A DNA stretch of 64,000 nt from a virus. Under the pieces are notes generated by a model that saw only the letters and a list, made by a program, of their open reading frames with translations, had not been told where the DNA came from and did no database searches. The DNA lies in IMG/VR virus record IMGVR_UViG_3300027759_004177, positions 62,001 to 126,000 of that record. One strand, given 5' to 3'. The translations under genes and the position numbers were made by a program. Shown piece after piece: positions 10,352-57,264 of the stretch; within the stretch, counting starts at the first letter, position 1, and each line of letters starts with the position of its first letter.

Positions 10352-10357
10352 ATCGTT

Positions 10358-35765: not shown

Positions 35766-36268
35766 TTATGCCCTGTTATTTGTAAAGTGTATCTTGGTGT
35801 TGGACCAATATTAGCAGCCATGTGTGGTACGTCGTAACACCATTCGGCCACAAAACCTGCTCGCCAGCCAGTGATTGGACTACCGGGTCCTTCAAAATAA
35901 TGTCCACTGGCCCAGTCTTCCATAAACACAATAGCTCTATGAATAGTATGTTCCTTGCCTTCTAAGTTAAAAACACTTACATATTTTTTATAATGATCTT
36001 GGTGTGTGGGCATTACTGTGCCACAATCCATGCGATAGTAGGCTGTACCAATATTTTTCCAGCCCATGCTTTCATACAGTTCAATAAACTTGTGATTCCA
36101 CGAAGGTTGGGGTTGACGCATATCGCATAGATGTCCAGCGATCCTGGACTCATATCCCATTGCCTGCCACCGAGTCACGCTGTCTGCATCGTTATACGGT
36201 TCATCAATATAATTCAGATGCTTGTATTCATCGTCCCAAAACTTGTCTATGTGATATGTTATTATCAT
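35762..36268 (-). CDS. 2OG/Fe(II) oxygenase-like protein
   Basis: Protein of 168 aa begun at MIITYHIDKF (ATGA overlap with the upstream dehydrogenase gene). H-x-D in VMPTHQDHYKK, HRAIVFMEDWASGHYFEG, distal His VPHMAAN and Arg PRYTLQITG. Related to 8184-8891. It lies with amidinotransferase and dehydrogenase genes, so may act on a small molecule. Confidence 0.65.
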   Translation of the reverse strand: MIITYHIDKFWDDEYKHLNYIDEPYNDADSVTRWQAMGYESRIAGHLCDMRQPQPSWNHKFIELYESMGWKNIGTAYYRMDCGTVMPTHQDHYKKYVSVFNLEGKEHTIHRAIVFMEDWASGHYFEGPGSPITGWRAGFVAEWCYDVPHMAANIGPTPRYTLQITGHK

Positions 36269-42363: not shown

Positions 42364-42524
42364 CCGGGGCGACACAAATTGGATTTGGCACCGTTTAAAC
42401 TATACATACTGATCCACTTGTCGACTTCGCTGCCATATTCGGGCATACGGTACGGCAAGAAATACAACTGTAAAAACCACCATACATAATTATCAATATA
42501 AAAATCAATTAGGTTATTTCTCAT
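42360..42524 (-). CDS. 54-aa aromatic-rich small protein
   Basis: MRNNLIDFYIDNYVWWFLQLYFLPYRM.. amphipathic and aromatic N-terminus, polar C-terminus with one Cys. Overlaps the cyclase stop by 11 bases; ribosome site weak. It may bind the membrane. Function unknown. Confidence 0.5.
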   Translation of the reverse strand: MRNNLIDFYIDNYVWWFLQLYFLPYRMPEYGSEVDKWISMYSLNGAKSNLCRPG

Positions 42525-44565
42525 GAGCTATGAATTCCCCATTCCAGTTTGCTGGTAGGTCTTGTTGCTTCATAAAGTCGCAACGTTCAATCCATATCTT
42601 ATAGTACTTGTCCATTTGTCCACCAAAGTTGCCTGTTAACTTTTTGCACATGGCGGCCGCTTCATTGAATTTTTTCTGACGGTACAGGTCATGCATTACA
42701 TCGTGTGCTTCCTTGTCTTTGCTGTAATCTTCACCTCGAGTACGTAATACTGTATAGATTAAGTCTGCTACTGTCTTGCCTTTTGGTTGTAAGTTATCCA
42801 ACAGCAAGTAGAAGAAATCATCTTTAGTTCTGTTGTATGTTTCAGCACCGATAATGGCCAACACACCGTAAGCCTTACAACGTGCTTCTAGTCGGGCGGC
42901 TGTACTAACCATGTCACCCAAGATATCATAACTGTGTCGGTCGGTTGAACCCATCTCACCAATGAACCCAACACCTGTGTTACAGCCCCAGCCCATTGCA
43001 GCTGGCGGCAAGCCTTGTGCTTCCATTTCTTTGGTATAAGCATCTACAGCGTCTAACATTTCTAAACCTACTTTGACAATAGTTCTAGCATGATCAGGAT
43101 CGTCTATAGGCGCACCATGAATGTGCATACTTGCATCACCCACATACTTGATAACCATACCCCGGTTGTCCATGATAGGTTTTGAAATAGCATCCATGTA
43201 ACCGTTCATGTATTTGCCTAATCCGCCTACATCATCGCCATAGTGTTCGCCAATTGGTGTAAAGCCACGTAAGTCACTAAACATAACACTTACGTCTTTA
43301 CGCACACCACGTTTGATCAAGTCAGGATCTTTCTGTAACATCTCCACAACTTCTTTTGAACAGTAACCAGCAAACTGTTTCTTTATGGCTTGCTTTTGTA
43401 AGAACTCGCTTACAAACTTAACACCGTAAGCATGAAGGAGAATAACAGTGAGGCCGCCAGCAAGGGCAGTAATGTCAAATAGCCAAGCATTAGCCGTGTA
43501 AACGTACTGAGATACAGGATACAAAATACCAAGAGCGATAACACCAGTAGCAAGTCCAACATATACATACCTCGTTAAAAATAATAATACGATACCTAAA
43601 ACCACAATAGCAATGATCTCAGCACCATCGGCCCAGTCGGGTCTTGATATTGCTGGACGATCTTTGTTGGCAATAACTGTGCCTAATACTGCGGCCTGTA
43701 AATCTTGTGGTAACATTTCGCCCAGGCTTGTGGCTACAGGGTTTGCTAGACCTTGCGCCGACACACCAACAATAACGATTTCACCATCAAAGTCTCGGGG
43801 CAAGTTGGTTAGGCTATAACGCTCTGGTGTCAAGCTCCAGTCAATCCATATACGACTCAAGCTGTCTGTGGTCACAGGACCAAATGCTGGAATTCGCATT
43901 TTCTCAACACCCTGCTCATTGATTTTAACTTGGAAGGTTGAGTCGCCTGCAGCCACACGCATGACTTCCATGGCCAGGCTTGGATACAATCGACCGTTGT
44001 AAGCAACTACCAGTGGCATACGACGCACAACACCGTCAACTTCCGGAAACGTGTTAACAACACCAACTCCGGCAGCGGCCGTTTCTACACTGGGAATGTT
44101 AGCGATAAGCCCCGGATAGGTCACAAACGCATCTAAACCAAATGGTCCAATTACTGCTGATCCTGGAGCTCGTGGTTGATTTCTTGTCGTTGTTGATCCA
44201 ATGCTAGGAAGTACCGTTGGGTATTGTTTTAACGCTTGCACATACGCAGTATCTTGCCCCATACGGTCTTTATCTGGAGTAAGAATATTAAACACAACAA
44301 GACCAGCATTACGTCTGTAAAGGTCTCGAATAATGGCACCGTATGTATCACGGGAAAAAGGAAATTGCCCATATCGTTCTAATGCTTTCTCATCTATGTT
44401 TACTACACTGACCCCGATCGTTTCGGCAGGTCGGCTAGTAACAAGTGTATCGAAATAGCGTAGCCTTACGCTTTCAACAAACATAGGATCTGCAACACGC
44501 AAGCCCACAATGATTGCTAGTGTTAATAGAGCAGTCCAAGGACTGATTAAGATTTTTTTGAACAT
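42514..44565 (-). CDS. CHASE2-domain membrane adenylate cyclase
   Basis: Protein of 683 aa. N-terminal membrane helix, extracytoplasmic CHASE2 sensor (about 30-305), three membrane helices (about 316-380), then a class III cyclase domain (about 420-610). Metal Asp in MFSDLRGF (432) and YVGDAS (478); adenine-selecting Lys474 and Asp548 are present; Arg559 is in AARLE. The transition-state Asn normally in V-N-x-A-x-R is Ser (MVSTAARLE), so activity may be lowered. A tail of 70 residues looks TPR-like. Would make cAMP in response to a periplasmic signal. Confidence 0.88.
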   Translation of the reverse strand: MFKKILISPWTALLTLAIIVGLRVADPMFVESVRLRYFDTLVTSRPAETIGVSVVNIDEKALERYGQFPFSRDTYGAIIRDLYRRNAGLVVFNILTPDKDRMGQDTAYVQALKQYPTVLPSIGSTTTRNQPRAPGSAVIGPFGLDAFVTYPGLIANIPSVETAAAGVGVVNTFPEVDGVVRRMPLVVAYNGRLYPSLAMEVMRVAAGDSTFQVKINEQGVEKMRIPAFGPVTTDSLSRIWIDWSLTPERYSLTNLPRDFDGEIVIVGVSAQGLANPVATSLGEMLPQDLQAAVLGTVIANKDRPAISRPDWADGAEIIAIVVLGIVLLFLTRYVYVGLATGVIALGILYPVSQYVYTANAWLFDITALAGGLTVILLHAYGVKFVSEFLQKQAIKKQFAGYCSKEVVEMLQKDPDLIKRGVRKDVSVMFSDLRGFTPIGEHYGDDVGGLGKYMNGYMDAISKPIMDNRGMVIKYVGDASMHIHGAPIDDPDHARTIVKVGLEMLDAVDAYTKEMEAQGLPPAAMGWGCNTGVGFIGEMGSTDRHSYDILGDMVSTAARLEARCKAYGVLAIIGAETYNRTKDDFFYLLLDNLQPKGKTVADLIYTVLRTRGEDYSKDKEAHDVMHDLYRQKKFNEAAAMCKKLTGNFGGQMDKYYKIWIERCDFMKQQDLPANWNGEFIAHEK

Positions 44566-44569
44566 CAAG

Positions 44570-44577
44570 TATTTATT
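44570..44577 (-). promoter_or_regulatory. late promoter word AATAAATA inside a palindrome
   Basis: CAAGTA/TACTTG flank the ATAAA core, making a 17-base inverted repeat right at the cyclase start; could also bind a regulator. Confidence 0.5.
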
Positions 44578-45571
44578 ACTTGATCACTGCTAGATTGTCT
44601 TTGAAAATACGCCAGCATTCATCCCAGGTCCAACGTTGACTGGACTGTTTAACCACGCGACCGCTTAGTTTTAAACACTTTTCAACTGCTACCGCTAGGT
44701 CGTTGTCCATATAGCCGTTTATGCCATTTTCAATGATGTCTACGGGACCTTGTACAGGAAAGGCTGCTACAGGAGTACCTTGTGCCATGGCTTCAATCAT
44801 CACTAGACCAAAGGTGTCTGCTCGGCTGGGAAACACAAACACATCAGCTTGATTGTAATAATCAACCAGCTCCTGTCCTTGTTTGTAGCCCACAAACTTA
44901 GCAGAAGGTAGCAACCGACGTGCTTCAGACATGTACGGTCCGTCGCCTACTATAACTAGTGTGTACGCATCTTGTAAAGGAATTAAATCTATCAGACCTT
45001 TTTCAGCACTGACCCGACCCACATTGAGAACCATTGGCTTAGAACGATCATCACACCATTCCGCTGTGGGCTTGATATCTCTGCGTACACCCCGAGTCCA
45101 GATAACCATGCGTCCAAATCCGTGTGATTTTAAATCCGCTTCTATGGTCTTTGTTGTGACCAGCACACGATGACTGTTTTTGTGGAACCAACGCAAATAC
45201 CAGTAAGTTAAACTTTTAGGCACATGATACATTGTTTTTAAGAACTTGGGAAAGTCTGTGTGATAGCTGGTATTGTAAGGAATACTGTTACGTTCACACC
45301 ACCAACGAGCAAAAAAGCCTACAGGCCCTTCTGTAGCGATGTGTATATAATCTGGCTGTATCGCTTTAATTTTCTTACTGATACCGTGCGGCCAGCACAA
45401 GCGAACTTCAGGATAACCAGGGCAAGCAAAATTAGGGAACTGCCCGGGATCAAGATAAACAACACTATACCCGTCACGCCTAGCATGATCTTCCAAGTTT
45501 TTGAAAGTTGTGACCACGCCGTTGATTTGATCTGGGACATTGTCTGTTATGATCAAGATTGTTTTTGACAT
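44576..45571 (-). CDS. GT4-family glycosyltransferase
   Basis: Protein of 331 aa. N-terminal INGVVTTFKNL donor-loop region, then LNVGRVSAEKGL, VGDGPYMSEARRLLP and the E-x7-E nucleotide-sugar motif DTFGLVMIEAMAQGTPVAAF. Close in layout to alpha-mannosyl/glucosyl transferases acting on lipids. In bacteria this gene type often sits beside an LpxH-like phosphatase as here (45689-46480), so the pair was probably acquired together. Confidence 0.88.
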   Translation of the reverse strand: MSKTILIITDNVPDQINGVVTTFKNLEDHARRDGYSVVYLDPGQFPNFACPGYPEVRLCWPHGISKKIKAIQPDYIHIATEGPVGFFARWWCERNSIPYNTSYHTDFPKFLKTMYHVPKSLTYWYLRWFHKNSHRVLVTTKTIEADLKSHGFGRMVIWTRGVRRDIKPTAEWCDDRSKPMVLNVGRVSAEKGLIDLIPLQDAYTLVIVGDGPYMSEARRLLPSAKFVGYKQGQELVDYYNQADVFVFPSRADTFGLVMIEAMAQGTPVAAFPVQGPVDIIENGINGYMDNDLAVAVEKCLKLSGRVVKQSSQRWTWDECWRIFKDNLAVIK

Positions 45572-45726
45572 CGTGTACTTATTTTAAAATTATCAAATTT
45601 AAGCCAATATTGTACGGTGCTTTGAGCTCGCAAACATTCGGATTCGGTAGCAAATTCGATCGTTATTCGTCCTGGTATGTCTTGCGGATTATTCGTGTGA
45701 ACTGCCAGTAGTATCAGTATCCACAT
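45553..45726 (-). CDS. 57-aa small secreted or membrane protein
   Basis: MWILILLAVHTNNPQDIPGRITIEFATES.. short hydrophobic N-terminus, then a beta/helix unit with two Cys. AAGGCACATGAC ribosome site. Overlaps both neighbours (38 and 19 bases), filling the gap between the LpxH-like and GT4 genes. Function unknown. Confidence 0.55.
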   Translation of the reverse strand: MWILILLAVHTNNPQDIPGRITIEFATESECLRAQSTVQYWLKFDNFKISTRCQKQS

Positions 45727-46480
45727 TGTCATGTGCCTTTGTCCAAGTTACTATTTCCCACCTACCCGAGTGATGCTCAACCAGAGCAGTCATTGATTCG
45801 ACCCAGTCGCCATCATTCATATACACAATGCCATCTATCATCTTTATTTCTGCGTGATGTATGTGTCCACAGATCACACCATCAAAGCCACGTTTCTTAC
45901 AATATGTAGCTAGATTGGTTTCAAACTGAAACATAAAGTCTGCGGCTTTTTTGACACGGTGTTTGAGATACTTGCTTAAACTCCAGTAGCCAAATCCCAA
46001 CTTGTGTCTGATCCAATTAAATCTGCTGTTCCAATCTAATACCAGGTCGTACAGTTTATCGCCCAGGAAACTCAGCCAAGGGGCCAAACGTGTGATTCCA
46101 TCAAACAGGTCTCCGTGGGTGACCAAATATGTTTTGCCATCCGCCCCAATGTGTTCTGTTTGATTTGTTATTTCAACACGTCCAAATCCCATGCCATAAG
46201 GTATGAGTGGTCTCAGAAACTCGTCGTGGTTGCCGGCCACATAGATCACACGTGTGCCACGTTTGGCGTGTCCTAGGATTCTTCTGATTGCATTGGTGTG
46301 GCTTTGTTTCCATCGCCACTTGTTTTGTTGAATCTTCCAGGCGTCAATGATGTCGCCCACTAGATAAAGTGTTTCACAGGTGTTGTGTTTGAGAAAGTTG
46401 TTGAGTTGTTCGGCTTTGCAATCTCTGGTGCCAAAGTGTATGTCACTAATAAAAATTGAGCGATAAGTTTTGGCTGTCAT
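45689..46480 (-). CDS. UDP-2,3-diacylglucosamine diphosphatase-like phosphoesterase
   Basis: Protein of 263 aa. Metal motifs DIHFG near residue 12, GDIIDAW near 41, GNHDE near 75, THGD near 115 and CGHIHHAEIK near 195. The GDIIDAW and GHTH-like ends plus a basic helical insert (RFNWIRHKLGFGYWSLSKYLKHRVKK) match LpxH-type lipid A pathway enzymes. Expected at the inner membrane. Start at the second ATG, because the first overlaps the late promoter word. Confidence 0.82.
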   Translation of the reverse strand: MTAKTYRSIFISDIHFGTRDCKAEQLNNFLKHNTCETLYLVGDIIDAWKIQQNKWRWKQSHTNAIRRILGHAKRGTRVIYVAGNHDEFLRPLIPYGMGFGRVEITNQTEHIGADGKTYLVTHGDLFDGITRLAPWLSFLGDKLYDLVLDWNSRFNWIRHKLGFGYWSLSKYLKHRVKKAADFMFQFETNLATYCKKRGFDGVICGHIHHAEIKMIDGIVYMNDGDWVESMTALVEHHSGRWEIVTWTKAHDNVDTDTTGSSHE

Positions 46481-46485
46481 AACCA

Positions 46486-46493
46486 TATTTATC
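46486..46493 (-). promoter_or_regulatory. late promoter word GATAAATA
   Basis: Seven of eight bases of TATAAATA, 5 bases upstream of the chosen LpxH-like start. Confidence 0.5.
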
Positions 46494-46603: not shown

Positions 46604-48637
46604 TTAAAAACTAAAACGAGCCTCTATCATAGCACTTTGTACTATGTAATCATATTGTTTGCCATAACCATAACGTAGGCGCACAACACTCTTTGGATCA
46701 ATTGCATATCCAACACTGGCGTAGGCTGTGTTAAAGTTTTGACTGTTGTAAGCATACTCACCTGTTACACGCCAGTCTGTAGCAACCGTGGCGTCATAAC
46801 GTACACCAATGTCTGTGCTGGTCTTGTTTGTGTTGACTGCGTCATATGTCATAGCAGTTAAACTACTACCAGATTCTGCGACCCCGTTGCGACGATTGGT
46901 TTCGTTACGCACACCAACAAAGGGACGTATGTCATTCCACTCTGGTGTGTAAACACGAGCAGTTGCCCACAAGTCTTGACCTTTGGTTGAACTTGTATTT
47001 GCCATGCCCAGTTCAGGTAAACTGTGATTGGTATCAAATGTGTTGGCAGCATAACCAATGTCGTTTTTAAAGATCCAGTCATTGACTGTGTAAGCACTAT
47101 AAATGCCTACGTGGTCTTTGTTTAAACTACCACCTGCATTTGTGCCTGCGGCACCATTTAGGTTAGCCTGACCACGATTGTATTGACCGCCAATGATCCA
47201 GTTTGGAGCAACTTGCCAGTCGTAACCCAGGCCGTATGTCATGCTCTTGTACGAGTAACCACCCACAGAGTTTGATTGGCCGGCGCTGCCTGTCACATAA
47301 AAGGTGTTGCGTTCTGATACATTGAAGTCACCACCCAGCACACGATTGCGATCTAACACATTGCTGTCTAACATGTAGTTCATTGCCTGATTGACATTGC
47401 TCAACTGACTGTATTGATCCACGCGAGTTGAATAGTCATTGGTTTGAATTGCCTGACTGATTTCATTGCCCGATGCACTATTAGAACTGACTGAGTCGGT
47501 TGTGCTCACGGTAACTACAGGAGTTCCATTTGTCACTGTTTGAGTGCCATCGCTGTAAGTTGTGGTAGTCACAGGAGTTGTGGTTGTTGTGACAGTCACA
47601 GGAGTTGTGGTTGTTTGTGTAACTGTAAATGGTGTTGTTACAGTGGTTGTTTTTGTTTGTGTAACTGTCAATGTCTTGGCAGTTTGAGCACCTCTTGCGT
47701 TGTCAATGGCCAAGGCCGCTGCCGCTGTACCGTAAGCAATACTGTTGGTAACTGCGGCGGTCCCGGTTGTGGTTGTTGTGGTAACCGAGTCGACTGTTGT
47801 TGTGCCGGTCACTGTTGGGGCCGAAGGTGGAGGAGTTGGATCTACTGAGGGTGCAACACTACCTGGGTTAGGTGCCACAGCACCAAATGTCTCGCCATTT
47901 TTTGTTACTGTGCCGATTGCATCATTGACCTGTAGCACCGGACTCAGTGCAGTATCACCCTGATTGAATACACCAAAGCCCACTTTGTATGTGCCTGCTG
48001 TTAAAATGTCAAACTGTGCCAACTGCCAACCTGTTGAGCCATAACTGCCAGTTGAGTAGTTGCCTGTGTTGGGGTTGGTAGCACCCAGTAGGGCGTACTG
48101 TCCCAGTACGTTATTGACCTTACCGAATGTGTCGGCTGATCCTGTGTTGACCAAAGTGGCAATACTGCCATCGTTAAACGGCACATAGTCTGTGCTGGTA
48201 TATACCCAGGCCATTTTAAATGTGGCTGGTGCTGTGAATGTGAAATCTTTACTGATCCAAGCAGAACTGGTGATGCCGCCGCCCTGTGACGCTACCAAAG
48301 AATTTAAACTACTAATACTTGAACTGCTCAAACCCAATGCGGTAGTCATTGCAGAATAGTTTTGTTGGCCGCCCGGTTGCATGCCAACCATGTAACTGCC
48401 TGTGTATGGATTGATATTCCATGTGTTAGGACCACAGCAACTAATAGTTTGTGTTCCACTGGTAGTGCTCACACCAATACCGCTTTGCATGTATGGGCCT
48501 GTTTGTGTGCCTGTTCCGCCACCTGCGGTCCAACCGTTGAGGTTGCCGGTGCCAAAACTGTAATCTTGTGTTTGTGCCTGTGCTGAAAAAGCCAGGCATG
48601 CTGCAAAAGCCGCTAGGGCTGTTGTGAAAAACTTCAT
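46604..48637 (-). CDS. outer-membrane beta-barrel surface protein (autotransporter-like)
   Basis: Protein of 677 aa. Signal peptide 1-21 (MKFFTTALAAFAACLAFSAQA). Residues 22-245 form a beta-sandwich like exported lectin/PEP-CTERM domains (GWTAGGGTG, TFKMAWVYTST). Residues 255-390 are a Thr/Val-rich low-complexity stalk. Residues 420-677 form a barrel with alternating strands (WIIGGQYNRGQANL, WRVTGEYAYNSQNF) ending in Phe, the outer-membrane insertion signal. It lies at the end of the curli-like locus. A hairpin covers its ribosome site. Confidence 0.8.
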   Translation of the reverse strand: MKFFTTALAAFAACLAFSAQAQTQDYSFGTGNLNGWTAGGGTGTQTGPYMQSGIGVSTTSGTQTISCCGPNTWNINPYTGSYMVGMQPGGQQNYSAMTTALGLSSSSISSLNSLVASQGGGITSSAWISKDFTFTAPATFKMAWVYTSTDYVPFNDGSIATLVNTGSADTFGKVNNVLGQYALLGATNPNTGNYSTGSYGSTGWQLAQFDILTAGTYKVGFGVFNQGDTALSPVLQVNDAIGTVTKNGETFGAVAPNPGSVAPSVDPTPPPSAPTVTGTTTVDSVTTTTTTGTAAVTNSIAYGTAAAALAIDNARGAQTAKTLTVTQTKTTTVTTPFTVTQTTTTPVTVTTTTTPVTTTTYSDGTQTVTNGTPVVTVSTTDSVSSNSASGNEISQAIQTNDYSTRVDQYSQLSNVNQAMNYMLDSNVLDRNRVLGGDFNVSERNTFYVTGSAGQSNSVGGYSYKSMTYGLGYDWQVAPNWIIGGQYNRGQANLNGAAGTNAGGSLNKDHVGIYSAYTVNDWIFKNDIGYAANTFDTNHSLPELGMANTSSTKGQDLWATARVYTPEWNDIRPFVGVRNETNRRNGVAESGSSLTAMTYDAVNTNKTSTDIGVRYDATVATDWRVTGEYAYNSQNFNTAYASVGYAIDPKSVVRLRYGYGKQYDYIVQSAMIEARFSF

Positions 48638-48640
48638 TTT

Positions 48641-48672
48641 CGAGATCCTTTTTATTATTTTTCTTGATCTCG
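48641..48672 (-). promoter_or_regulatory. hairpin masking the ribosome site of 46604-48637
   Basis: CGAGATC/GATCTCG (7 bp, extendable) encloses an A/T-rich loop; the 3' arm contains the AAGGATC ribosome site 4 bases before the ATG. Likely a translational switch, for example temperature or RNA-binding controlled. Confidence 0.5.
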
Positions 48673-48729
48673 ATACTCATACATCATTGATCCCGTACTG
48701 GGTGTTCAGCAAATCTCAAATTTACAAAA

Positions 48730-48888
48730 TTATTTATTGGGTTTTTGTTCTCGGTTTTGTGGTATTAGATCGGCCCAGTGTCGATAACAGGTCTTGAGAT
48801 ATTGAGTGTTATCGCCTACCTTGCTGTAGACTTGTGCGCCGTGTTCACAACCTGGTACCTGGCATACTGGTGGGATTCCTGTGATCAT
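48730..48888 (-). CDS. 52-aa Cys/His small phage protein
   Basis: CQVPGCEHG near residue 9 and CYRHWADL near 34 form a C-x4-C ... C-x2-H set that can bind zinc. Common shape in T4-like phages. Four-base overlap with 48885-49076. Function unknown. Confidence 0.6.
   Translation of the reverse strand: MITGIPPVCQVPGCEHGAQVYSKVGDNTQYLKTCYRHWADLIPQNREQKPNK
48731..48738 (-). promoter_or_regulatory. late promoter word AATAAATA
   Basis: Overlaps the stop of 48730-48888, about 95 bases upstream of the beta-barrel gene, whose leader would then include the hairpin at 48641-48672. Confidence 0.5.
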
Positions 48889-49076
48889 ATGTAGACTACC
48901 TCCCGTAAAAATGGATATTTCATAACAACAAAATCTCTGTATTCTTCGGGTACAAAAAATTCAACCACGTAACCGCGATGCGTTTCAAAATATCCGCCTG
49001 CCTGTTGAACGTACAGGCTCACATCATCCAACACGTTTCTACCGTGATGAAAATATCTTGCTGTAAATGATATCAT
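48885..49076 (-). CDS. small phage hypothetical protein
   Basis: Protein of 63 aa, MISFTARYFHHGRNVLDDVSLYV.., aromatic and alpha/beta. Between the curlin-repeat gene and the Cys/His gene. No function recognised. Confidence 0.55.
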   Translation of the reverse strand: MISFTARYFHHGRNVLDDVSLYVQQAGGYFETHRGYVVEFFVPEEYRDFVVMKYPFLREVVYI

Positions 49077-49088
49077 TGATTGTCTCCA

Positions 49089-50531
49089 TTATTGTCTTAC
49101 GGTTATTACCCCGCATCCGCCGGCTGTCACACAGGTTGTTGTTATGTTATATACTGCTCCACCCGATTGTATCAGATCTACTGACCCCGGACCGCCTGAG
49201 TTGTTGATTGTGATTGAAGCACGATTAGCCGTGGCTCCTTCTTGTACTGCTGTTATGGTATTGCCATTGCCAGTTAGAGTACTTTCCAGATAGTGTTGTC
49301 CGCCATCTTTTTGTACAACCGACACAGTATTGTTGTTGCCTGTGACTGTGTTGAACAAGGTTTTGTTGGCATTATTGGTCTGCGTGGCATTTACTGTGTT
49401 GGTATTACCGTTGATAGTGGTTTCCATATAGTGTCCACCCACACCGCCAGTGTTGTTTTGTTGCGTGGTCACAGAATTGTAATAACCAGTAACATCCACA
49501 CGCTGATAGTGATTGTTAGAACTGTTGGTTGATGTTCCTGTGGCAGTTACACTTTGATTCAAATTTAAAACGTTGTTGCCGCCTACCACACGCATTTCTA
49601 TTGTGTTTTTACCTGCGGTATCTAGGTCGCCTTGGCGTACAGTAATGCTATTACTACTGCCTTGTATCTGTACAGCCTGTTGCCCTATGCCCTTGAGTTC
49701 GTTGGCACGACCTGATTGCGTGACATTAACGGTATTGTTATCACCCACTTGATCTATGTATATGGTGTTGTTGACCACGCTTTTGGTTTGAAACGCTGTA
49801 ACTCTGGACTGTTGTTCGGTTGTAATATTGGCTGTGTATGTGGGTGCTGGAGGTGGCGCACTATATCCTCCAGCGGATCCACTGGTAGAACCGCCTGTGA
49901 CCGAGTAGTTACCGCCATTGACTGGTGCTCCGTTGTTTATAACGCAGGTTTGTGTTCCGCTGTATAGGGCACAACTTTGCCAGCCATTGCTACTGGTCCA
50001 GCCTTGAGCATAGCCGTTGGTTCCGTACACACCAAATCCTGGGTTATATAAAATGTTAGGGCCGCCGTTAAAACTCAAACTTGGGTCGATAATATACGGT
50101 CCATAGTTGCCGGCCCAGTAGCCGCCGTCTTTGCCATAGAACTCTACCTTAACATACGCAACTGAGGCACAGCTTCCACCACAGTTGGTAGTTGTTAGTG
50201 TATATGTTGTGGGGGCGGTAGCTCCGTAGACCAAGGTGTTGGCCTGCTGTACTGTGTTAACGATTTGGTTGCTGCTATTATAAAAAACCAGTCTTATGGT
50301 AAACGGATCGCCCGGAGCACGACCACCACCATCCATTGCCTGCACAGAAAGAGTTAGTGTTCCGCCGGTCTGCATGGCACTATCGAAAACCACAGTCTGA
50401 CTGACTGTTGCAAAGTTGTAGCCCATCTTAAGGGCATTAGACGTTGTTTGTGCTTTTACCAAACCCAAACAGGACAGCTCTAACAAGGCCACAGCAAAAA
50501 TTATCAACAGGTATGTAAACAATCTTTTCAT
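49089..50531 (-). CDS. curlin-repeat surface protein
   Basis: Protein of 480 aa. Signal peptide about 1-27. Residues 28-230 form a beta-sandwich with a Cys pair (CGGSCA). Residues 245-480 contain curlin-type repeats of the form x-x-G-N-x-N-x-V-x-x-x-Q (QVGDNNTVNVTQSG, TGNNNTVSVVQKD, LTGNGNTITAVQEG). Such repeats stack into amyloid. May be a minor or nucleating fibre subunit (CsgB-like role, inferred). TAATG overlap with the FecR-domain gene. Confidence 0.8.
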   Translation of the reverse strand: MKRLFTYLLIIFAVALLELSCLGLVKAQTTSNALKMGYNFATVSQTVVFDSAMQTGGTLTLSVQAMDGGGRAPGDPFTIRLVFYNSSNQIVNTVQQANTLVYGATAPTTYTLTTTNCGGSCASVAYVKVEFYGKDGGYWAGNYGPYIIDPSLSFNGGPNILYNPGFGVYGTNGYAQGWTSSNGWQSCALYSGTQTCVINNGAPVNGGNYSVTGGSTSGSAGGYSAPPPAPTYTANITTEQQSRVTAFQTKSVVNNTIYIDQVGDNNTVNVTQSGRANELKGIGQQAVQIQGSSNSITVRQGDLDTAGKNTIEMRVVGGNNVLNLNQSVTATGTSTNSSNNHYQRVDVTGYYNSVTTQQNNTGGVGGHYMETTINGNTNTVNATQTNNANKTLFNTVTGNNNTVSVVQKDGGQHYLESTLTGNGNTITAVQEGATANRASITINNSGGPGSVDLIQSGGAVYNITTTCVTAGGCGVITVRQ

Positions 50532-51649
50532 TAGTTCTGCCTTAGTGTTATTGTAGTTCCACCGCCTGAGTTTACACGATTTTTAATTTCTATACTGCCT
50601 TGTATCTGATAAATTGTGGTGTTTTGATTTTTAGGCACAGTCACACTTTGTACATTGCTTCCATCGTCTCTGGTCAAGTTCACTGAGTAGTCATCCACTG
50701 ATGCTACAACACCCGTGGTGGCCACATAGTCCGGTAACAATCCACTTTTAGCTGTGTTTAAAAAATCCAATTGAGCAGCCATCTGTGCGTTGATGATATC
50801 TAAGATATTGGCTAAGAGATTCTGATCTAGCAAACTGGTACTAAGAAAATCTTTAAAATGTGTTTCTTGGGCTGTCAACATGTTGACCAAGCCATTTTCA
50901 CGTAAAAAATCTACATCCAAGGCTCCTTTAGCAACGGCTCGTTGTGTAGTTTGAACTTCATTGAGTTCTTTGGGCGGTGCCACAATCAACATGTTGTTGA
51001 TGGCATCAGGGGAGAGATTGACTATGACCGGACGTGTGGGGAAACTTGAGCGTGTTTCTATCTTGGTGGCTTGAAATGGTTTATTTAATATTACACTACC
51101 AGCATCGTTGCTGACTGATATTTCTCCAGTTTTACAATCACGTTCCACATTGACCCAACCACGTGGACAACTGGGCAACAAGATTATAGTTGATGCACCC
51201 AGCTCGTCTACTGTAGCAGTAAAGTCTGTACCGCGTACACCAACAGTAGCGGTAGGAGTATTAAGGGCAACATTTTGAGGACTGTTTTTAGCGATCTGTC
51301 CTGACGCATATCTCACTGTTCCTGCGGCCACATTGACTGCTAACTTGCCGCCTTTGGTTGACTTGGGATCGTATACAAAATCGTCAATGACCAACCTGCT
51401 GTTTTCATTGACCTGTACTTTGGTATCATCGGCAAAAGTTATGCCAACTTTACCCGCTGTGGTTTTTACCGCGTCCTGCATCTCCACTCGAGTTCCCTTG
51501 GTCCCAGTGAGCGTCGTCTTCTGTCGTTGTATCGAAGGCGGGCTGTTCACTTGCTCCGTTATGGTACCAATCGCGGCTTCTAAGTTCATGGATGTACTCA
51601 GCAAGAGTACGCATAGTGTCAGGTTGCATAATTTGTTCCCCTTATACAT
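50531..51649 (-). CDS. FecR-domain secreted protein
   Basis: Protein of 372 aa. Signal peptide 1-25. Residues 60-165 are a FecR beta-domain: VGITFADDTKVQVNENSRLVIDDF, GTVRYASGQIA and TPTATVGVRGTDFTA. The C-terminus TTITLRQN resembles the end of a curlin repeat. FecR domains bind peptidoglycan or assemble at the envelope. Its place between curlin genes suggests a role in fibre anchoring or nucleation. Confidence 0.82.
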   Translation of the reverse strand: MYKGNKLCNLTLCVLLLSTSMNLEAAIGTITEQVNSPPSIQRQKTTLTGTKGTRVEMQDAVKTTAGKVGITFADDTKVQVNENSRLVIDDFVYDPKSTKGGKLAVNVAAGTVRYASGQIAKNSPQNVALNTPTATVGVRGTDFTATVDELGASTIILLPSCPRGWVNVERDCKTGEISVSNDAGSVILNKPFQATKIETRSSFPTRPVIVNLSPDAINNMLIVAPPKELNEVQTTQRAVAKGALDVDFLRENGLVNMLTAQETHFKDFLSTSLLDQNLLANILDIINAQMAAQLDFLNTAKSGLLPDYVATTGVVASVDDYSVNLTRDDGSNVQSVTVPKNQNTTIYQIQGSIEIKNRVNSGGGTTITLRQN

Positions 51650-51659
51650 TTATAATCGC

Positions 51660-52451
51660 TTATCTAGCAGTTTGGTTTATAGTTACGCTATTTCCATTTC
51701 CACTGCTACTGGTAAAATTAAACACATTAGCCGCAACACCACCAGACTGTGTCACAGTAAAAGTATTACTACTACCAGTCTGTGTTATACTTGCGGTATG
51801 TCCGCCATCAGCTTGACTTACAGTAAATGAGTTACTGGCCCCCACGGCTGTGATTGTGGCGCTGTTACTGTTACCAGTTTGTGTAACTGTAGCATTATTG
51901 CCACCGCCACCAGTTAGGCTGATGTTTTGTGTATTGGTGTTGCCTTCAACAACGCCAGTAAATGTATTGTTGGCACCACCTGCGGTATTTACAGTTACAC
52001 TATTATCATCGCCCTTGATGTTAAGATTGGCAGTGGCATTATTACCTGACTGTGTGATATTCACAGTATTTCCCGATGCTGTACTGTCATTGGCATTATT
52101 TAAATTAATAATACCTGCGGCGTTGTTACCCGTGACACTATAATTTACCGTGTTACCAGTGGTTCCTGTGCCTGTGCCACGATTGATTCCTAAACTCAAG
52201 GTATTACTACTACCAACCTGATTCACCGTCACTTCGTTACCGTCACCATAGATGCCGGATGGGGTAGTGTTGCTGGTTCCTGTGCCTTGTATGCCGCGTA
52301 CCACGTTGCCTGTTCCGTCTTGTGTAATAGAAATGGTGGCGTTGTCACCTGTTTGATCAATGTAGATACTGTTATCCACAGCATGCACACTCACACTCAT
52401 CACAATACCTAGCAGGATTGTTGTTACTTTTGTCGCTAGTTTGTGTTTCAT
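51660..52451 (-). CDS. curlin-repeat amyloid subunit (CsgA-like)
   Basis: Protein of 263 aa. Signal peptide about 1-24. From residue 27 nearly the whole protein is curlin repeats: YIDQTGDNATISITQDG, ISLTGGGGNNATVTQTGNSN, VSQADGGHTASITQTGSSN, ending SVTINQTAR. E. coli CsgA has five repeats in 151 aa; this has about nine. It is expected to be secreted through CsgG and to polymerise on the cell surface. Confidence 0.88.
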   Translation of the reverse strand: MKHKLATKVTTILLGIVMSVSVHAVDNSIYIDQTGDNATISITQDGTGNVVRGIQGTGTSNTTPSGIYGDGNEVTVNQVGSSNTLSLGINRGTGTGTTGNTVNYSVTGNNAAGIINLNNANDSTASGNTVNITQSGNNATANLNIKGDDNSVTVNTAGGANNTFTGVVEGNTNTQNISLTGGGGNNATVTQTGNSNSATITAVGASNSFTVSQADGGHTASITQTGSSNTFTVTQSGGVAANVFNFTSSSGNGNSVTINQTAR

Positions 52452-52472
52452 AATACTTCTTCCTTTTTGACC

Positions 52473-53807
52473 TTATTTGGTCTCTACTTTACCACTCTTG
52501 ACCTTTTGTTCGTTGACCCCAACAACCAACGGTGTTGCTGATACTACTTTTTGTAAAACATAACCACCCCTACCTTGATGATCCTTAACCCGTAGCCACT
52601 CACCTTCGATAGCAACTACTGTTAATTCTGTACCACGAAGAAATTGCCAAGTTCTTTGGCTGGTTTCTCGTGTTTCTTTATAAATGTATTCTGTTTCTCG
52701 TAACCAAACTCGATTGGCCACTGGTTCTTTTGTTTTTACTTCGGACTGTACTCGTTTCACGCTGTCAGCTAGATTTTCCCCAGGACGGCGTTCCAGACTG
52801 GTAGGAGCTGGTGCTGGTTTTGCTTCCGGTTGTGACGTTACAGGGGCTTGGACTGGTGCTTTGGTTTCTGTGACTGCGACTGGCCCTGGCTCTGGTTTTT
52901 TGGCTGGTTGTTCTGCGACTGGCGTAGGCGGTGTAACTGTTGTAACAGGTTTGACATCATTTCGTGTTTCCTCTCGCTTAAAGCTCCAAACGCCTTTGCG
53001 TTCACCTTCTTTGATCAATTCAACCACGGCAGCTTCCACTGTGGCTTTGACTGCCAAAGTGCCAGGCTCGTTAATTGTTAATCCAGTTTCAAATTCAAAC
53101 ATACTGGCAGTCGGGCTAAGTGCGTTGCTGGCACTACCAAAAACTTGACTAGCAATATTTTTATTTTCAATAAACTTTAGCACAGCCACACTATCTGATG
53201 TGCTGTAAACTATCTTGGTCACACTCACGGCGGCCAAGACCTTGCCGGTGTTCACACTCACGGCTCGTAGACTAATAGTTACAGTATCTTTGCTATACTG
53301 TGTCTGTGGGCCAATGCCCAAAAATCTATAAGCGGCACCACCAGACTCTGAGCTGGAGTCATAGCCAATGATACCACCTTCCATGATGATGCCGGCAAAT
53401 TGTAGGGGCATCAAGGGCTTGGCACCAGGTCCCTCGTAAGCTTCACGCATTTGTCGTATGATGGTACGTTCTTTGGTCAAGCTATCTATGCCCACACGTT
53501 CTACTACATCAAACCACTCACCACGACCCACGTCTTGTAAGGCCTTGATCAGGAACACTTCGGCACCTTGGGTCACTGCCGAGCTCAAGCTGGCTATGCC
53601 CGGGGTAGGTTTACGCTGACCAGTTTTATCAGCAAAACTGTAAACTGCCGCTGTGACTTTCTTGCCATTGGGTGGTGGTAATGTATCAAACTCTTTCTGC
53701 ATTTTGTTGGGCGTGGGTTCAGGACGATATTCAGTGATGCTAGTTTTTTGCGTGGCAGCACAACCAGTTAAGATAGCGACAAAGAGTAAGGTGAATAATG
53801 TACGCAT
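52473..53807 (-). CDS. csgG: CsgG-like curli secretion channel with C-terminal SH3 domain
   Basis: Protein of 444 aa. Lipobox LTGC (Cys16). CsgG core 40-290: KVTAAVYSFADKTGQRKPTP, FDVVERVGIDSLTKERTIIRQMRE, FAGIIMEGGIIGYDSSSESGGAAYRFLGIG and TGLTINEPGTLAVKATVEAAVVELI. E. coli CsgG is 277 aa; here a Pro/Ala linker and an SH3-like unit (TELTVVAIEGEWLRVKDHQGRGGYV) follow. It forms the nonameric outer-membrane export pore for curlin. Confidence 0.9.
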   Translation of the reverse strand: MRTLFTLLFVAILTGCAATQKTSITEYRPEPTPNKMQKEFDTLPPPNGKKVTAAVYSFADKTGQRKPTPGIASLSSAVTQGAEVFLIKALQDVGRGEWFDVVERVGIDSLTKERTIIRQMREAYEGPGAKPLMPLQFAGIIMEGGIIGYDSSSESGGAAYRFLGIGPQTQYSKDTVTISLRAVSVNTGKVLAAVSVTKIVYSTSDSVAVLKFIENKNIASQVFGSASNALSPTASMFEFETGLTINEPGTLAVKATVEAAVVELIKEGERKGVWSFKREETRNDVKPVTTVTPPTPVAEQPAKKPEPGPVAVTETKAPVQAPVTSQPEAKPAPAPTSLERRPGENLADSVKRVQSEVKTKEPVANRVWLRETEYIYKETRETSQRTWQFLRGTELTVVAIEGEWLRVKDHQGRGGYVLQKVVSATPLVVGVNEQKVKSGKVETK

Positions 53808-54287
53808 TTAACTTCCAAACTGAAATGTACCCAGCGGTACTGTAATTGTGGTTTGGTTGCCCACTGTGTCTGTGACCTGCAGATAAATGTTGCTACTGTC
53901 TTTGCTCCAGAAAATAGTATTGCCCTCAAAGTTCAAAGTACCTGAACAACCCACGCTGTTGCTGCCACTACAGTTGTTGTTGGCAAACATGGCAGTGGCC
54001 AAGTTTTGACTGATCTGAGCGTAGATACGCGACTCTAAGTTGTTTAAAAACTTTTGTATGTTGGTATTTTGTTTATCGGCTTTGGCCTTGTCAATGGCTG
54101 CTTGGATGTCTTTGGCCACCTGTGCTCTGCGTGAAAACTCTTGATTTTCGATAGTAAGGACGTGACTACTGTAACCTGAACCATTGAAACTTGGGCTTTT
54201 AAAACTGTAATCATTGAAAGGGGCGCCGTAGATAGTGGTCGACCACACAGCGATTAAGGTTAGAATAACCTGGTTAAACATACGCAT
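53808..54287 (-). CDS. csgF: CsgF-like curli assembly factor
   Basis: Protein of 159 aa begun at MRMFNQVIL, which follows AGAGGTAGC and gives a signal peptide ending YGA. Mature N-terminus FNDYSFKSPSFNGSGYSSHVL keeps the CsgF pattern (N-P-S-F-G-G), the segment that inserts in the CsgG pore. The C-terminal half has beta strands and a Cys pair (NNCSGSNSVGC). Its stop is one base from the CsgG start, matching csgF-csgG order in curli operons. Confidence 0.82.
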   Translation of the reverse strand: MRMFNQVILTLIAVWSTTIYGAPFNDYSFKSPSFNGSGYSSHVLTIENQEFSRRAQVAKDIQAAIDKAKADKQNTNIQKFLNNLESRIYAQISQNLATAMFANNNCSGSNSVGCSGTLNFEGNTIFWSKDSSNIYLQVTDTVGNQTTITVPLGTFQFGS

Positions 54288-54391
54288 ACTGCTACCTCTT
54301 TTTATTATTATTATCGGTAGTAGAATCGTCAAGACTCTAGCTCCTATTAGTATTTAACAGGATCTAGCACAAATTAAGTGGTGGTTTTAAT

Positions 54392-55558
54392 TTACTCTAA
54401 AGAATACAAACAAGAATGCATTATTTCTGCGCCAACAATGACATTGTCTTTGATTTTTAAATATTTTTGATCAATGTTGTTTATCCATTGGTTTGTGCCC
54501 CAGACCCAAGAGTCGTACAGTTGAGGATTATGTTTTTTTACCCAATATTCACTTTTGACAACCATTGGACCCAGCACTTTACCTGCCTGAAATGTGTTAT
54601 CGTCCCAATACGGATAGCAAGCGTCTCTATAAAATTCTCTATATTTTATATTCGTTGGCAACCTAATATCTAAAATGCGTTGTTTTAACATTCTCTGCAA
54701 TATTTTATAGTGTTTTGTTTTTTTATCGGGATTATTTTTAAAATTATCTATTACTTTAAACAAATTCATCACATGATGTGCCTGGGCTACAGGCAACAGT
54801 GGAAATTTTTTAGTCCAGTAAAACCATTCATTGTGTCTGCCGGGTATTGTTTCTTCGGCTGCACGATCTACAAAATGAGCATGATATTTTTCATCAACTT
54901 TTATAACCTGTATTTTGTCGTGTCCTTGCACAAACGCAATCCGTTTATTTAAACGCATTTGTTGTTCTATGGAGTCTGTGGTTCTATTCCACGTGGTATA
55001 AGTTCTAATGGCCTGATAATGATTGGCTGTGTCTGCTTGAAATCTACTTTCAGGTATGATTGATTGTTCATAACTGTCCGACGAATCATCAAAACTAATT
55101 TTTATATCAGGGTGGTGTTTTTCAACATACTCCAACATGGGCCTGGCAGCAAATTCCCATTCACTATCAACATTCTGTTCATCAAGATCTTGTGTGTTGG
55201 CTTCTACCCATTTTCTCTCTGCACGTAACGGAAATTTAGTATAAATTTCGTCTAACTTTATGTTGTTTTTTAAAAATGTTTGTAGTATATTATGGCTGTC
55301 GGCGCCGCCACTGAAACTGAGAACAATATAGTCGTATTCGTCTCTGATTTGCTGTGCCCGCTGGCAATACAATTCCAGCAAAGATTCTTTCGGAGGTTTA
55401 GTCCAATCTATTTTTTTATAAGTGTCATCGTTGAAGTGCCATGATACATCTTGTTTAGTTTGTGTAGCATCATATAGTGCTTGCATTTTGTTTGCATACA
55501 GTTTATTACCAACTTGGTAATAACCATTTTCGTAAGAATCCGTATGCAACTGTGTCAT
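54392..55558 (-). CDS. PP-loop ATPase of the adenine nucleotide alpha-hydrolase fold
   Basis: Protein of 388 aa. PP-loop SFSGGADSHNIL near residue 82, preceded by YDYIVLS and followed by Rossmann-like elements; the rest is helical with many Trp and Tyr. This fold adenylates carboxyl or carbonyl groups (asparagine-synthase, QueC or tRNA-modification types). No glutaminase domain. Target unknown; related phage genes exist. Confidence 0.75.
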   Translation of the reverse strand: MTQLHTDSYENGYYQVGNKLYANKMQALYDATQTKQDVSWHFNDDTYKKIDWTKPPKESLLELYCQRAQQIRDEYDYIVLSFSGGADSHNILQTFLKNNIKLDEIYTKFPLRAERKWVEANTQDLDEQNVDSEWEFAARPMLEYVEKHHPDIKISFDDSSDSYEQSIIPESRFQADTANHYQAIRTYTTWNRTTDSIEQQMRLNKRIAFVQGHDKIQVIKVDEKYHAHFVDRAAEETIPGRHNEWFYWTKKFPLLPVAQAHHVMNLFKVIDNFKNNPDKKTKHYKILQRMLKQRILDIRLPTNIKYREFYRDACYPYWDDNTFQAGKVLGPMVVKSEYWVKKHNPQLYDSWVWGTNQWINNIDQKYLKIKDNVIVGAEIMHSCLYSLE

Positions 55559-56476: not shown

Positions 56477-56938
56477 TAATTTCATGCTTTCGGCTTCCAC
56501 CACACGACTGCGTAGTCCCGAACTGGAAAATGAATGGTCACGACCGTTAAATATTGGCTGAATGTCACGGCGTTGACCCTCGTACTTACCGGTATACTCT
56601 TTGTCTTGGTATTCAACACCAAGTACTCGGATATCCAATGGAAGGATTAACAACAGGTCTACTAGATCCTGTTCTGTTTGATAAACCACCACTTCATCCA
56701 CATAACGGCAAGCAGCCAATTGAATTTGTCGTTCTACAATACTTTGTACAGGTTTATTCTTGGTGTCAGGTCGATCAATGGTGGGATCGGTTTGCAGGCC
56801 AGCGATCAAGTAGTCGCAATGATTCTTTGCTTCTGCCAACATGGCAATGTGTCCAGCGTGTAACATGTCGAAGGTGCTGAAGGTAATACCAATCTTCTTG
56901 CCATCGTCTTTGAGTTTACGAATGTGATTGAATATCAT
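56459..56938 (-). CDS. cytidylyltransferase-like nucleotidyltransferase
   Basis: Protein of 159 aa. GITFSTFDMLHAGHIAML contains the HxGH motif (HAGH, near residue 27), and SFSSSGLRSRV near 138 the second nucleotide-binding motif. Fits glycerol-phosphate or sugar-phosphate cytidylyltransferases (TagD/RfaE types). It would make a CDP- or ADP-activated precursor. ATGA overlap with ClpS. Confidence 0.85.
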   Translation of the reverse strand: MIFNHIRKLKDDGKKIGITFSTFDMLHAGHIAMLAEAKNHCDYLIAGLQTDPTIDRPDTKNKPVQSIVERQIQLAACRYVDEVVVYQTEQDLVDLLLILPLDIRVLGVEYQDKEYTGKYEGQRRDIQPIFNGRDHSFSSSGLRSRVVEAESMKLLTKKS

Positions 56939-57264
56939 CTGTCTTGTTCGATTTTGACTTGTAAAGGAAACCCGTTGTTGCGAGCCAGTAAGGTAACCTC
57001 AATGCCTTTTTGTTCGGCCATTTCGTAGGGTAATACTGCTACCACTGCTGAACCTTCTTCGTGTACCTTCATGGTCAATGACACAGCGGCGCCTTCATCA
57101 TAGTTGAATATGACCTTGAGTGTTTCTACTACAAATTCCTGCGTGGTCTGTTCATCGTTGATATAGATCACACGGAACTGTGGTGGCTCACCGATATTGA
57201 GCTTGGGTTCAATACGGGTACGCACTACCGACTGGGTTTTGGTTTTTGACATTGTTTCGCTCAT
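56935..57264 (-). CDS. clpS: ClpS adaptor protein
   Basis: Protein of 109 aa. Core PPQFRVIYINDEQTTQEFVVETLKVIF with the acidic N-degron pocket (N-D-E), then AVSLTMKVHEEGSAVVAVLPYEMAE. ClpS hands N-end-rule substrates to ClpA-ClpP and alters ClpAP choice. With phage ClpP and tmRNA it suggests redirected host proteolysis. Promoter at 57301-57329 and a leader hairpin. Confidence 0.9.
   Translation of the reverse strand: MSETMSKTKTQSVVRTRIEPKLNIGEPPQFRVIYINDEQTTQEFVVETLKVIFNYDEGAAVSLTMKVHEEGSAVVAVLPYEMAEQKGIEVTLLARNNGFPLQVKIEQDR

Follow-up and report, generated by a model that had tools for sequence, protein, structure and literature searches.

Phage-encoded curli modules

Curli-type export modules have been described in several marine phages. 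The arrangement CsgF-CsgG-curlin-FecR-curlin-adenylate cyclase is known from pelagiphages and from Melnitz, a phage of OM43 (PMC9599517, PMC9004378, PMC7029224); for pelagiphages, Wittmers et al. 2022 (PMC9599517) gave the genes in this order as CsgF, CsgG, CsgA/B, FecR, another CsgA/B and adenylate cyclase. These operons are widespread in the ocean and expressed in ocean metatranscriptomes, and in podovirus loci a histidine kinase gene lies directly upstream of the module (PMC9599517). Earlier papers also describe the FecR partner and the absence of CsgE, and they put forward superinfection exclusion as well as "sibling capture" (PMC9599517, PMC9004378, PMC7029224); fibre display, aggregation and exclusion of rivals were proposed earlier (PMC7029224, PMC9599517). 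Melnitz infections gave no clumping, and lysis timing was preferred as the role of CsgGF in a study that counts Melnitz as lacking csgA/B (PMC9004378); yet its GenBank annotation reads CsgF-CsgG-curlin-FecR-curlin-cyclase, curlin-repeat genes included. Phage HTVC008M shows the same module order. A first-pass annotation of the present locus held that a full pore with its substrates would be a first for a phage; the pelagiphage report (PMC9599517), the Melnitz annotation and HTVC008M contradict this. A literature search found no report of fibres on phage-infected cells.

Overall organization of the locus

The window analysed here is a 64,000-nt stretch of DNA, positions 62,001 to 126,000 of the virus record IMGVR_UViG_3300027759_004177, which measures 356,865 bp in total; searches of the whole record were made by protein family. 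Profile matches and coordinates place CsgF, CsgG, curlin 1, the FecR protein and curlin 2 in a tight minus-strand block (Table 1), with intergenic gaps of 0, 21, 10 and -1 bp from CsgF to curlin 2. The autotransporter barrel gene is separated from these five core genes by ~450 bp, and the block extends through a metallophosphoesterase, a GT4 glycosyltransferase and a CHASE2 cyclase to ~42514. All components named in the first-pass annotation (CsgF, CsgG, two curlins, FecR and a barrel) were recovered in place on the minus strand with Pfam matches, and the profile signal was strong, which removes its concern that CsgG and CsgF signal might be missing. Its curli core therefore stands; the extent it assigned, 46604-54287, is too short, and the PlcP-Agt pair, the cyclase and the curlin 2 head domain had been overlooked.

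Table 1. Coordinates, strand and supporting matches of the features discussed
Feature	Coordinates	Strand	Match or basis
SGGADS-motif gene, PP-loop-like	54392..55558	-	motif read directly; upstream of csgF
CsgF homologue	53808..54332	-	PF10614 E 4.8e-10, over cut-off; phrog_35372 E 1.1e-63
CsgG homologue	52473..53807	-	PF03783 E 8.7e-42
Curlin 1	51660..52451	-	PF07012 E 1e-16, 5 stretches
Periplasmic FecR-domain protein	50531..51649	-	PF04773 E 1.8e-9
Curlin 2	49089..50531	-	PF07012 E 2.7e-4, slightly over cut-off
Autotransporter-type protein	46604..48637	-	PF03797 E 2e-14, residues 446-636
PlcP-type metallophosphoesterase (putative lipid-remodelling phospholipase C)	45689..46486	-	PF00149 E 3.7e-11
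Agt-type GT4 glycosyltransferase (putative diacylglycerol glycosyltransferase)	44576..45571	-	PF00534 E 3.9e-23
CHASE2-domain class III adenylate/guanylate cyclase	42514..44568	-	PF05226 E 2.7e-38; PF00211 E 3e-14
Cyanophage-like virion structural protein	61066-62793		same record

A CsgG relative is present at 33 IMG/VR loci. All 27 viral loci that extend far enough to reveal gene order keep CsgF-CsgG-curlin-FecR; 20 of them also contain the cyclase, and most viral loci retain both curlins in a fixed order relative to the pore. The block is linked to phage genes, as the same record encodes a terminase in addition to the virion structural protein. A 104-kb contig (L003) is collinear with the window over 13 genes at 91-100% protein identity, and collinear neighbours in other assemblies include ClpS and an exonuclease gene upstream.

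As the first-pass annotation had remarked of CsgB and CsgC, no dedicated CsgB-, CsgC- or CsgD-type gene was seen within the block. Its similar remark on CsgE extends to the whole 356,865-bp record, possibly an incomplete one, where PF10627 found no match, in a search that recovers E. coli CsgE. Since phage and alphaproteobacterial modules are reported to lack CsgE (PMC9599517), it is not a defining part of the phage kind.

Structure and phylogeny of the export pore

CsgF, which probably starts at an internal ATG, retains the motif FKSPSFNG where the mature region begins, and the corresponding pattern F.[SNT]P.F.G occurs in 33 of 39 distinct viral CsgFs. Its phmmer matches to flagellar P-ring and CBM chains, together with an NCBIfam ccoP match, were discarded as products of chance or composition. 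CsgG comprises a lipobox (LTGC, at Cys16), a pore domain (residues ~1-285) that matches E. coli CsgG structures with an E of 7e-42 across residues 1-285, a Pro-rich linker and an SH3-like tail (residues ~370-430). The lipobox is found in 38 of 40 distinct viral CsgGs. The tail matches SH3_4 weakly, at an E of 4.5e-5, slightly below the Pfam cut-off; singled out earlier as unusual, it is real but optional, a similar tail being recognisable in 13 of the 40. The constriction segment reads FKPYPASNF in the phage, compared to RKPTPGIASL in E. coli.

In a tree of 117 CsgGs, built by a quick method with no bootstrap, one fork holds all 37 phage rows plus six contigs filed as bacterial, and the window CsgG falls in a phage-only set of 29. 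The CsgG of a Hyphomonas contig (L132) sits on a long branch. The phage CsgGs, that of the window included, share a common ancestry.

The gene directly upstream of csgF encodes the SGGADS motif and has no Pfam match over the cut-off and no NCBIfam or PHROG match. It shows no kinase match, in contrast to the histidine kinase gene of the podovirus loci; it is missing or diverged in several relatives, and we are unsure whether it is a module member.

Two curlins, one with a head domain

Curlin 1 has a signal peptide followed by ~9-10 repeats, so that the nine repeats counted previously are correct to within one. It matches the curlin of PDB 8c50 with an E of 7e-13 and E. coli CsgA (8enq) with an E of 0.004, and is presumably the major fibre subunit.

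The AF2 model of curlin 2 shows a β-sandwich head (residues ~28-156), a disordered linker and a curlin solenoid (residues ~255-480) with a conserved Cys pair at its C-terminal end. The head resembles the glycan-binding sandwiches Fbs1, CBM16 and CBM22 (Z 8-9), a structural match alone, from a model of middling confidence and at Z values close to the levels that unrelated folds reach. Of 15 curlin 2 heads, six are PA14 domains and one, in L018, is F5/8C; HTVC008M curlin 2 carries a PA14 head. The N-terminal head is swappable, being PA14, F5/8C or, in the window, a β-sandwich of glycan-binding type, for which a literature search gave no earlier description. From these head domains it is predicted that the fibres would bind particular glycans and that the operon would encode an adhesin.

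FecR protein and CHASE2 cyclase

The FecR protein consists of a signal peptide, a FecR domain (residues ~27-221), a helical linker and a C-terminal β domain (residues 314-371) whose last strand is curlin-like. Its AF2 model (mean pLDDT 67.5) matches the FecR-type domains of PupR and anti-sigma proteins with Z of 13-15 (PupR Z 15.1). The fold search gave clear matches for the FecR domain only, the domain at 311-372 being barely tested, with rows at Z ~3. A match to the anchoring domain 5ix9 covers residues 24-120, away from the C-terminus. In both sequence and model the FecR domain is preceded only by an N-terminal helix resembling a signal peptide, with no transmembrane helix and no cytoplasmic anti-sigma domain.

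A curlin-like strand motif at the FecR C-terminus, captured by a regular expression defined post hoc after the sequences had been inspected, occurs in 27 of 32 distinct viral FecRs. The Pfam curlin repeat was undetected at this end in each of 27 members scanned, and its assignment as a Pfam curlin repeat was dropped; the regular-expression test supports similarity to curlin, not homology. FecR proteins ending in a curlin-like strand had no earlier description in our literature search, and the strand gives an initial hint as to why the operon is accompanied by FecR and the cyclase. The FecR partner itself, previously called unusual, is so against E. coli only, and is constant in the phage module.

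The cyclase matches phrog_35576 with an E of 7.7e-184. In the window protein, Ser replaces the usual transition-state Asn, as it does in 24 of the 32 sequences scored, which leaves its activity unsure. No cNMP-binding domain was found in the whole 356,865-bp record; a phage-encoded receptor was accordingly dropped, and any cyclase signal would have to act through a receptor of the host. A scan for CRP sites (TGTGA-N6-TCACA, ≤2 mismatches) gave 50 matches in the window against 49.5 expected and is uninformative, and a promoter scan (52 found, 39.5 expected, sd 6.9) was left out of the argument.

Autotransporter and PlcP-Agt pair

The autotransporter-type protein has an N-terminal passenger, a Thr-rich linker and a C-terminal β-barrel, with homologues at the corresponding site in six relatives (L003, L005, L007, L020, L038 and L048). 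Beyond it, the phosphoesterase directly adjoins the glycosyltransferase, as PlcP and Agt do. The former is 55% identical over 233 aa to a P. aeruginosa protein encoded upstream of an Agt1-type gene and equated with PlcP (PA3219) by gene order and annotation; the latter is 36% identical over 330 aa to the P. aeruginosa Agt1 adjoining PlcP. A literature search gave no earlier description of PlcP-Agt lying within a curli block next to an autotransporter and CHASE2 cyclase.

The pair might simply be independent phosphate-scavenging genes that adjoin the curli genes, a reading compatible with the curli core and one on which we are evenly divided. PlcP relatives are encoded on at least 598 viral stretches, and among the best 80 of these loci the glycosyltransferase occurs in 51 and curli genes within 10 kb in only 15. 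The PlcP-like gene of Pelagibacter phage Mosig likewise lies away from curli genes and adjoins a putative phosphate transporter gene. However, several relatives also have the pair placed between curlin 2 and the cyclase, and L022 and L034 carry it in inverted order. Together with PlcP on hundreds of viral contigs, the pair in the block suggests that viruses remodel the membrane lipids of their hosts, on which a literature search gave no earlier report.

Proposed mechanism and alternatives

The earlier proposal of a curli-type export pore with amyloid substrates in a phage is backed by profiles, synteny and phylogeny. We propose that the block is a phage type VIII (curli) secretion operon that would coat infected cells with lectin-tipped amyloid, a reading we consider probable. 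The operon is an enlarged version of the published pelagiphage-lineage module, with envelope-modifying genes added, and takes that module beyond the ~140-kb phages of SAR11 and OM43 to a 357-kb phage record.

In such an operon, CsgG would form an outer-membrane pore in the infected cell with CsgF seated within it, and curlin 1 would be secreted and assemble into amyloid on the cell. Curlin 2 may join the fibre via its repeats with the glycan-binding-type head facing outward, turning the fibre into an adhesin. The FecR protein would stay periplasmic, engage curlin by its curlin-like C-terminal strand and signal the state of export or assembly to the cyclase through the latter's periplasmic CHASE2 domain; the cyclase would then raise intracellular cyclic nucleotide. 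Phospholipids may be replaced by glycolipids through PlcP and Agt, yielding phosphate for phage DNA and an altered membrane. That infected cells would display fibres, aggregate and exclude rivals is plausible, and the benefit is most likely physical, the infected cell being tethered to neighbours or surfaces or shielded from rival phages.

Several observations count against this reading: no clumping with Melnitz, no CsgE gate, no cNMP regulator, Ser in the cyclase active site (24/32), a curlin 2 head match that is structural only, and a FecR C-terminal motif that is post hoc and Pfam-negative for the curlin repeat.

That the fibres are made mainly for superinfection exclusion, as a coat that masks receptors and repels rival phages and not for tethering, was put forward before (PMC9599517), and the envelope-modifying PlcP, Agt and autotransporter genes adjoin the operon; we think this unlikely, as the modelled glycan-binding-type heads of curlin 2 suggest binding over mere shielding. 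Also unlikely, and offered tentatively, is that the module as a whole is a self-monitoring, glycan-targeted amyloid adhesin, with exchangeable lectin-type curlin 2 heads that would select what the infected cell adheres to, FecR sensing of export or fibre assembly relayed to the CHASE2 cyclase and membrane remodelling of that cell by PlcP-Agt; if so, phages would build a regulated adhesive surface of tunable specificity. A third proposal, made for Melnitz and pelagimyophages (PMC9004378, PMC7029224), would repurpose CsgG and CsgF as a lysis-timing pore or uptake channel with fibre display secondary or absent. The lack of an encoded CsgE gate and the constriction residues unlike those of E. coli fit it, yet most loci retain two curlin substrates alongside the pore, a lysis pore would have no use for curlins, a FecR protein or exchangeable heads, and the count of Melnitz as lacking csgA/B disagrees with its annotation; we regard it as quite improbable. 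Misassembly of bacterial DNA onto a phage contig, a chimera already considered in the first-pass annotation, could draw on the bacterial type of all block genes and on the CsgF-CsgG-curlin-FecR-cyclase set of the 705-kb Hyphomonas MAG contig L132, but is extremely improbable and for practical purposes refuted, because collinear contigs recur in other assemblies, the window CsgG groups with phages only and the module is present in the complete genomes of the isolates Melnitz and HTVC008M.

Comparison with known systems

The E. coli curli system (csgBAC, csgDEFG) shares CsgG and CsgF homologues and curlin-repeat subunits with the window, which differs in lacking CsgE, in the added FecR and cyclase, and in a second curlin with a head domain. 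The bacterial contig of Hyphomonas sp. TMED17 (L132) has CsgF-CsgG-curlin-FecR-CHASE2 cyclase, whereas its FecR lacks the curlin-like C-terminal strand and its cyclase retains the catalytic Asn. The PlcP-Agt genes of P. aeruginosa (PA3219-PA3218, PMC8528852) resemble the window pair as adjacent phosphoesterase and GT4 genes in the same order; the window pair, however, is phage-borne and within a curli block. Methylophilales phage Melnitz (MZ577098) has the same module order and a CsgG 40% identical over 63% of the query, but infects OM43, has a 141-kb genome and carries a block without PlcP-Agt or autotransporter. The pelagiphage module (HTVC008M, KC465899) also agrees in its CsgF-CsgG-curlin-FecR-curlin-adenylate cyclase order, in lacking CsgE and in CsgGs that group together. 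Compared to it, the window phage is much larger, has an SGGADS-motif protein where pelagiphages have a histidine kinase, a CsgG with an SH3-like tail and a curlin 2 with a different head, and has an autotransporter and the PlcP-Agt pair inserted before the cyclase.

Gene content and layout of the curli block

The first-pass annotation had described CsgF-like and CsgG-like proteins, two curlins, a FecR-domain protein and an outer-membrane barrel in one block, and Pfam matches confirmed that these components are present on the minus strand of the window. The transcription order is CsgF, CsgG, curlin, FecR, curlin 2 (the second curlin), autotransporter-type protein, metallophosphoesterase, GT4 glycosyltransferase and CHASE2 cyclase. 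The first five genes almost abut in an operon-like arrangement; curlin 2 and the barrel gene are ~450 bp apart, and two short open reading frames lie in this interval. A profile built from curlin 2 and its relatives matches the solved curlin 8c50 (E 2.3e-8). Immediately upstream of csgF lies a 388-residue protein with an SGGADS PP-loop-like motif, for which family searches (Pfam, NCBIfam, PHROG) returned no match. A ClpS-like protein was identified by reading the sequence, and many related viral loci also contain a match to this protein, again a few kb upstream of csgF.

Features of the curli block and other genes of the window, in window positions
Feature	Position	Strand	Match (E)
CsgF	53808-54332	-	Pfam, 4.8e-10
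CsgG	52473-53807	-	Pfam, 8.7e-42
Curlin (first)	51660-52451	-	Pfam, 1e-16
FecR-domain protein	50531-51649	-	Pfam, 1.8e-9
Curlin 2	49089-50531	-	Pfam, 2.7e-4, barely above cut-off
Autotransporter-type protein (barrel)	46604-48637	-	Pfam, 2e-14
Metallophosphoesterase	45689-46486	-	
GT4 glycosyltransferase	44576-45571	-	
CHASE2 class III cyclase	42514-44568	-	
Virion structural protein	61066-62793		phrog_1645, 4e-108
ClpS-like protein	56935-57264	-	
PP-loop-like protein	54392-55558	-	
UDP-glucose dehydrogenase-like protein	36265-37488	-	phrog_9148, 4e-96
Radical-SAM protein	15487-16941	-	phrog_1802, 2.4e-66
2OG-Fe(II) oxygenase	13931-14569	-	
tmRNA	9983-10379	-	
TctC-type periplasmic protein	8909-9940	-	PF03401, 1.1e-27

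The virus record of 356,865 bp, of which the window is 62001-126000, also carries a terminase gene (218879-219502). The virion structural protein lies ~7 kb from csgF, and its best named-phage matches are cyanophages (43-45% identity over ~65% of the query). An assembly chimera joining bacterial and phage DNA, the alternative raised at first pass, is ruled out for practical purposes: the same 13 genes, from ClpS through the cyclase, are repeated on contigs of 104 kb (L003) and 28 kb (L002).

Distribution and ancestry

An IMG/VR scan with CsgG as the query gave 33 loci, in all of which CsgF is directly upstream of CsgG; curlin and then FecR follow in every locus that extends far enough (27 loci), and the cyclase is visible in 20. 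The longest CsgG-carrying contigs measure 245 and 328 kb, and two more large contigs with the block (266 and 289 kb) came from an additional scan with the phosphoesterase. The only named phages to match are Melnitz and HTVC008M, besides a 1.5-kb record labelled Salmonella phage. The tmRNA gene of the window encodes the tag peptide ANDEQFALAA; in Melnitz, too, a tmRNA lies a few kb away from the curli genes.

In a tree of 117 CsgGs, built by a quick method with no bootstrap, all 37 phage rows sit behind one starred fork together with six contigs filed as bacterial, and the window CsgG falls within a starred phage-only set of 29. Five of these six contigs (L122, L124, L131, L146 and L182) are 3-10 kb long and belong to metagenome-assembled genomes (MAGs), and may be phage DNA binned with bacteria; they place phage-type curli genes in Flavobacteriaceae, Rhodobacteraceae, Pirellulales and Pelagibacter MAGs. 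The sixth (L132, Hyphomonas MAG) is 705 kb long, and its CsgF-CsgG-curlin-FecR-cyclase locus has ordinary bacterial genes as neighbours; the L132 CsgG is on a long branch of unsure exact placement. The tree and the Hyphomonas locus fit the alphaproteobacterial origin to which the module has been traced (Wittmers et al. 2022, PMC9599517).

The SH3-like tail of the window CsgG is found, by similarity, in 13 of 40 distinct viral CsgGs, and the tails of the remaining long ones are unrelated or more diverged. The segment of E. coli CsgG that forms the pore constriction, FKPYPASNFSTAV, corresponds to RKPTPGIASLSSAV in the window CsgG.

FecR protein, cyclase and curlin 2

The AlphaFold model of FecR (mean pLDDT 67.5) comprises a signal-peptide helix, a FecR domain similar to that of PupR (Z 15.1), a low-confidence helical stretch and a C-terminal β domain (pLDDT ~71-87). 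Neither a transmembrane helix nor an anti-sigma domain precedes the FecR domain, and the protein is therefore not a classical FecR regulator. Its last residues, NRVNSGGGTTITLRQN, are similar to the final strand of a curlin repeat. A C-terminal pattern, composed after inspecting the sequences, fits 27 of 32 distinct viral FecRs, compared with 0.74 per 32 shuffled sequences and none of the CsgF, CsgG, glycosyltransferase and cyclase C-termini; the Hyphomonas FecR ends differently. We infer that FecR would make contact with curlin, either within the periplasm or at the fibre, and would signal to the CHASE2 cyclase.

Class III cyclases carry metal-binding and base-recognition residues and a transition-state Asn. 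The window cyclase appears to retain the metal-binding and base-recognition residues, but Ser replaces the usual Asn in 24 of the 32 cyclases scored, the window's included. A search of the whole record for a cyclic-nucleotide-binding regulator gave none.

Relatives of curlin 2 share the C-terminal repeats and a terminal Cys pair, and the N-terminal part varies from phage to phage: the head is PA14 in 6 of 15 (L027, L030, L042, L048 and HTVC008M among them) and F5/8C in one (L018). The window head had no match in Pfam. AlphaFold (model mean pLDDT 64, mostly ~60-84 across the head) predicts a β-sandwich that matches, among others, the sugar-recognising domain of Fbs1, CBM16 and CBM22 (Z 8-9, rmsd ~2.5-3.5 over 107-122 residues). 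Some unrelated folds, such as birnavirus VP2, score equally, and sugar binding by the modelled head is therefore a lead and no proof. Curlin 2 looks like an adhesin.

Envelope and metabolic genes

The phosphoesterase, elsewhere annotated as UDP-2,3-diacylglucosamine diphosphatase, shares 55% identity over 233 residues with a P. aeruginosa protein encoded directly ahead of a GT4 glycosyltransferase, to which the window glycosyltransferase is 36% identical. This gene pair, taken from a plasmid record, was equated by annotation and order with PA3219-PA3218, described as PlcP and Agt1 (PMC8528852). Viral contigs often encode PlcP relatives (at least 598 stretches), usually with a GT4 gene close by and mostly with no curli genes; among the best 80 loci (L037-L116 in IMG/VR), 51 have a glycosyltransferase match and 15 have CsgF, CsgG or FecR relatives. 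No earlier report of a phage PlcP-Agt pair appeared in the literature searched, which included few of the subscription journals and preprints. The UDP-glucose dehydrogenase-like protein could be a source of UDP-glucuronate for an Agt-type enzyme.

The window further encodes a radical-SAM protein, a 2OG-Fe(II) oxygenase and a TctC-type solute-binding protein, a kind that normally belongs to tripartite tricarboxylate transporters.

Comparison with known phage curli modules

The first-pass interpretation stands in part; the kind of system is already known. CsgF and CsgG were reported in pelagimyophages, with sibling capture proposed (Zaragoza-Solas et al. 2020, PMC7029224); the pore genes of Melnitz were described, clumping was not seen and a lysis role was favoured (Buchholz et al. 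2022, PMC9004378); and the module in full, curlins, FecR and cyclase included and CsgE absent, was identified in pelagiphage podo- and myoviruses and found expressed in metatranscriptomes, with superinfection defence, sibling capture and import discussed as roles (Wittmers et al. 2022, PMC9599517). The central claim that a phage pore with its substrates would be new is therefore wrong. As far as our searches show, what is new is the carrier, the added genes for the envelope and the way in which the domains of curlin 2 and FecR are read, and a function of the block inside infected cells is presumed. In its core, the block resembles those of Melnitz and HTVC008M, both of which have CsgF-CsgG-curlin-FecR-curlin-cyclase.
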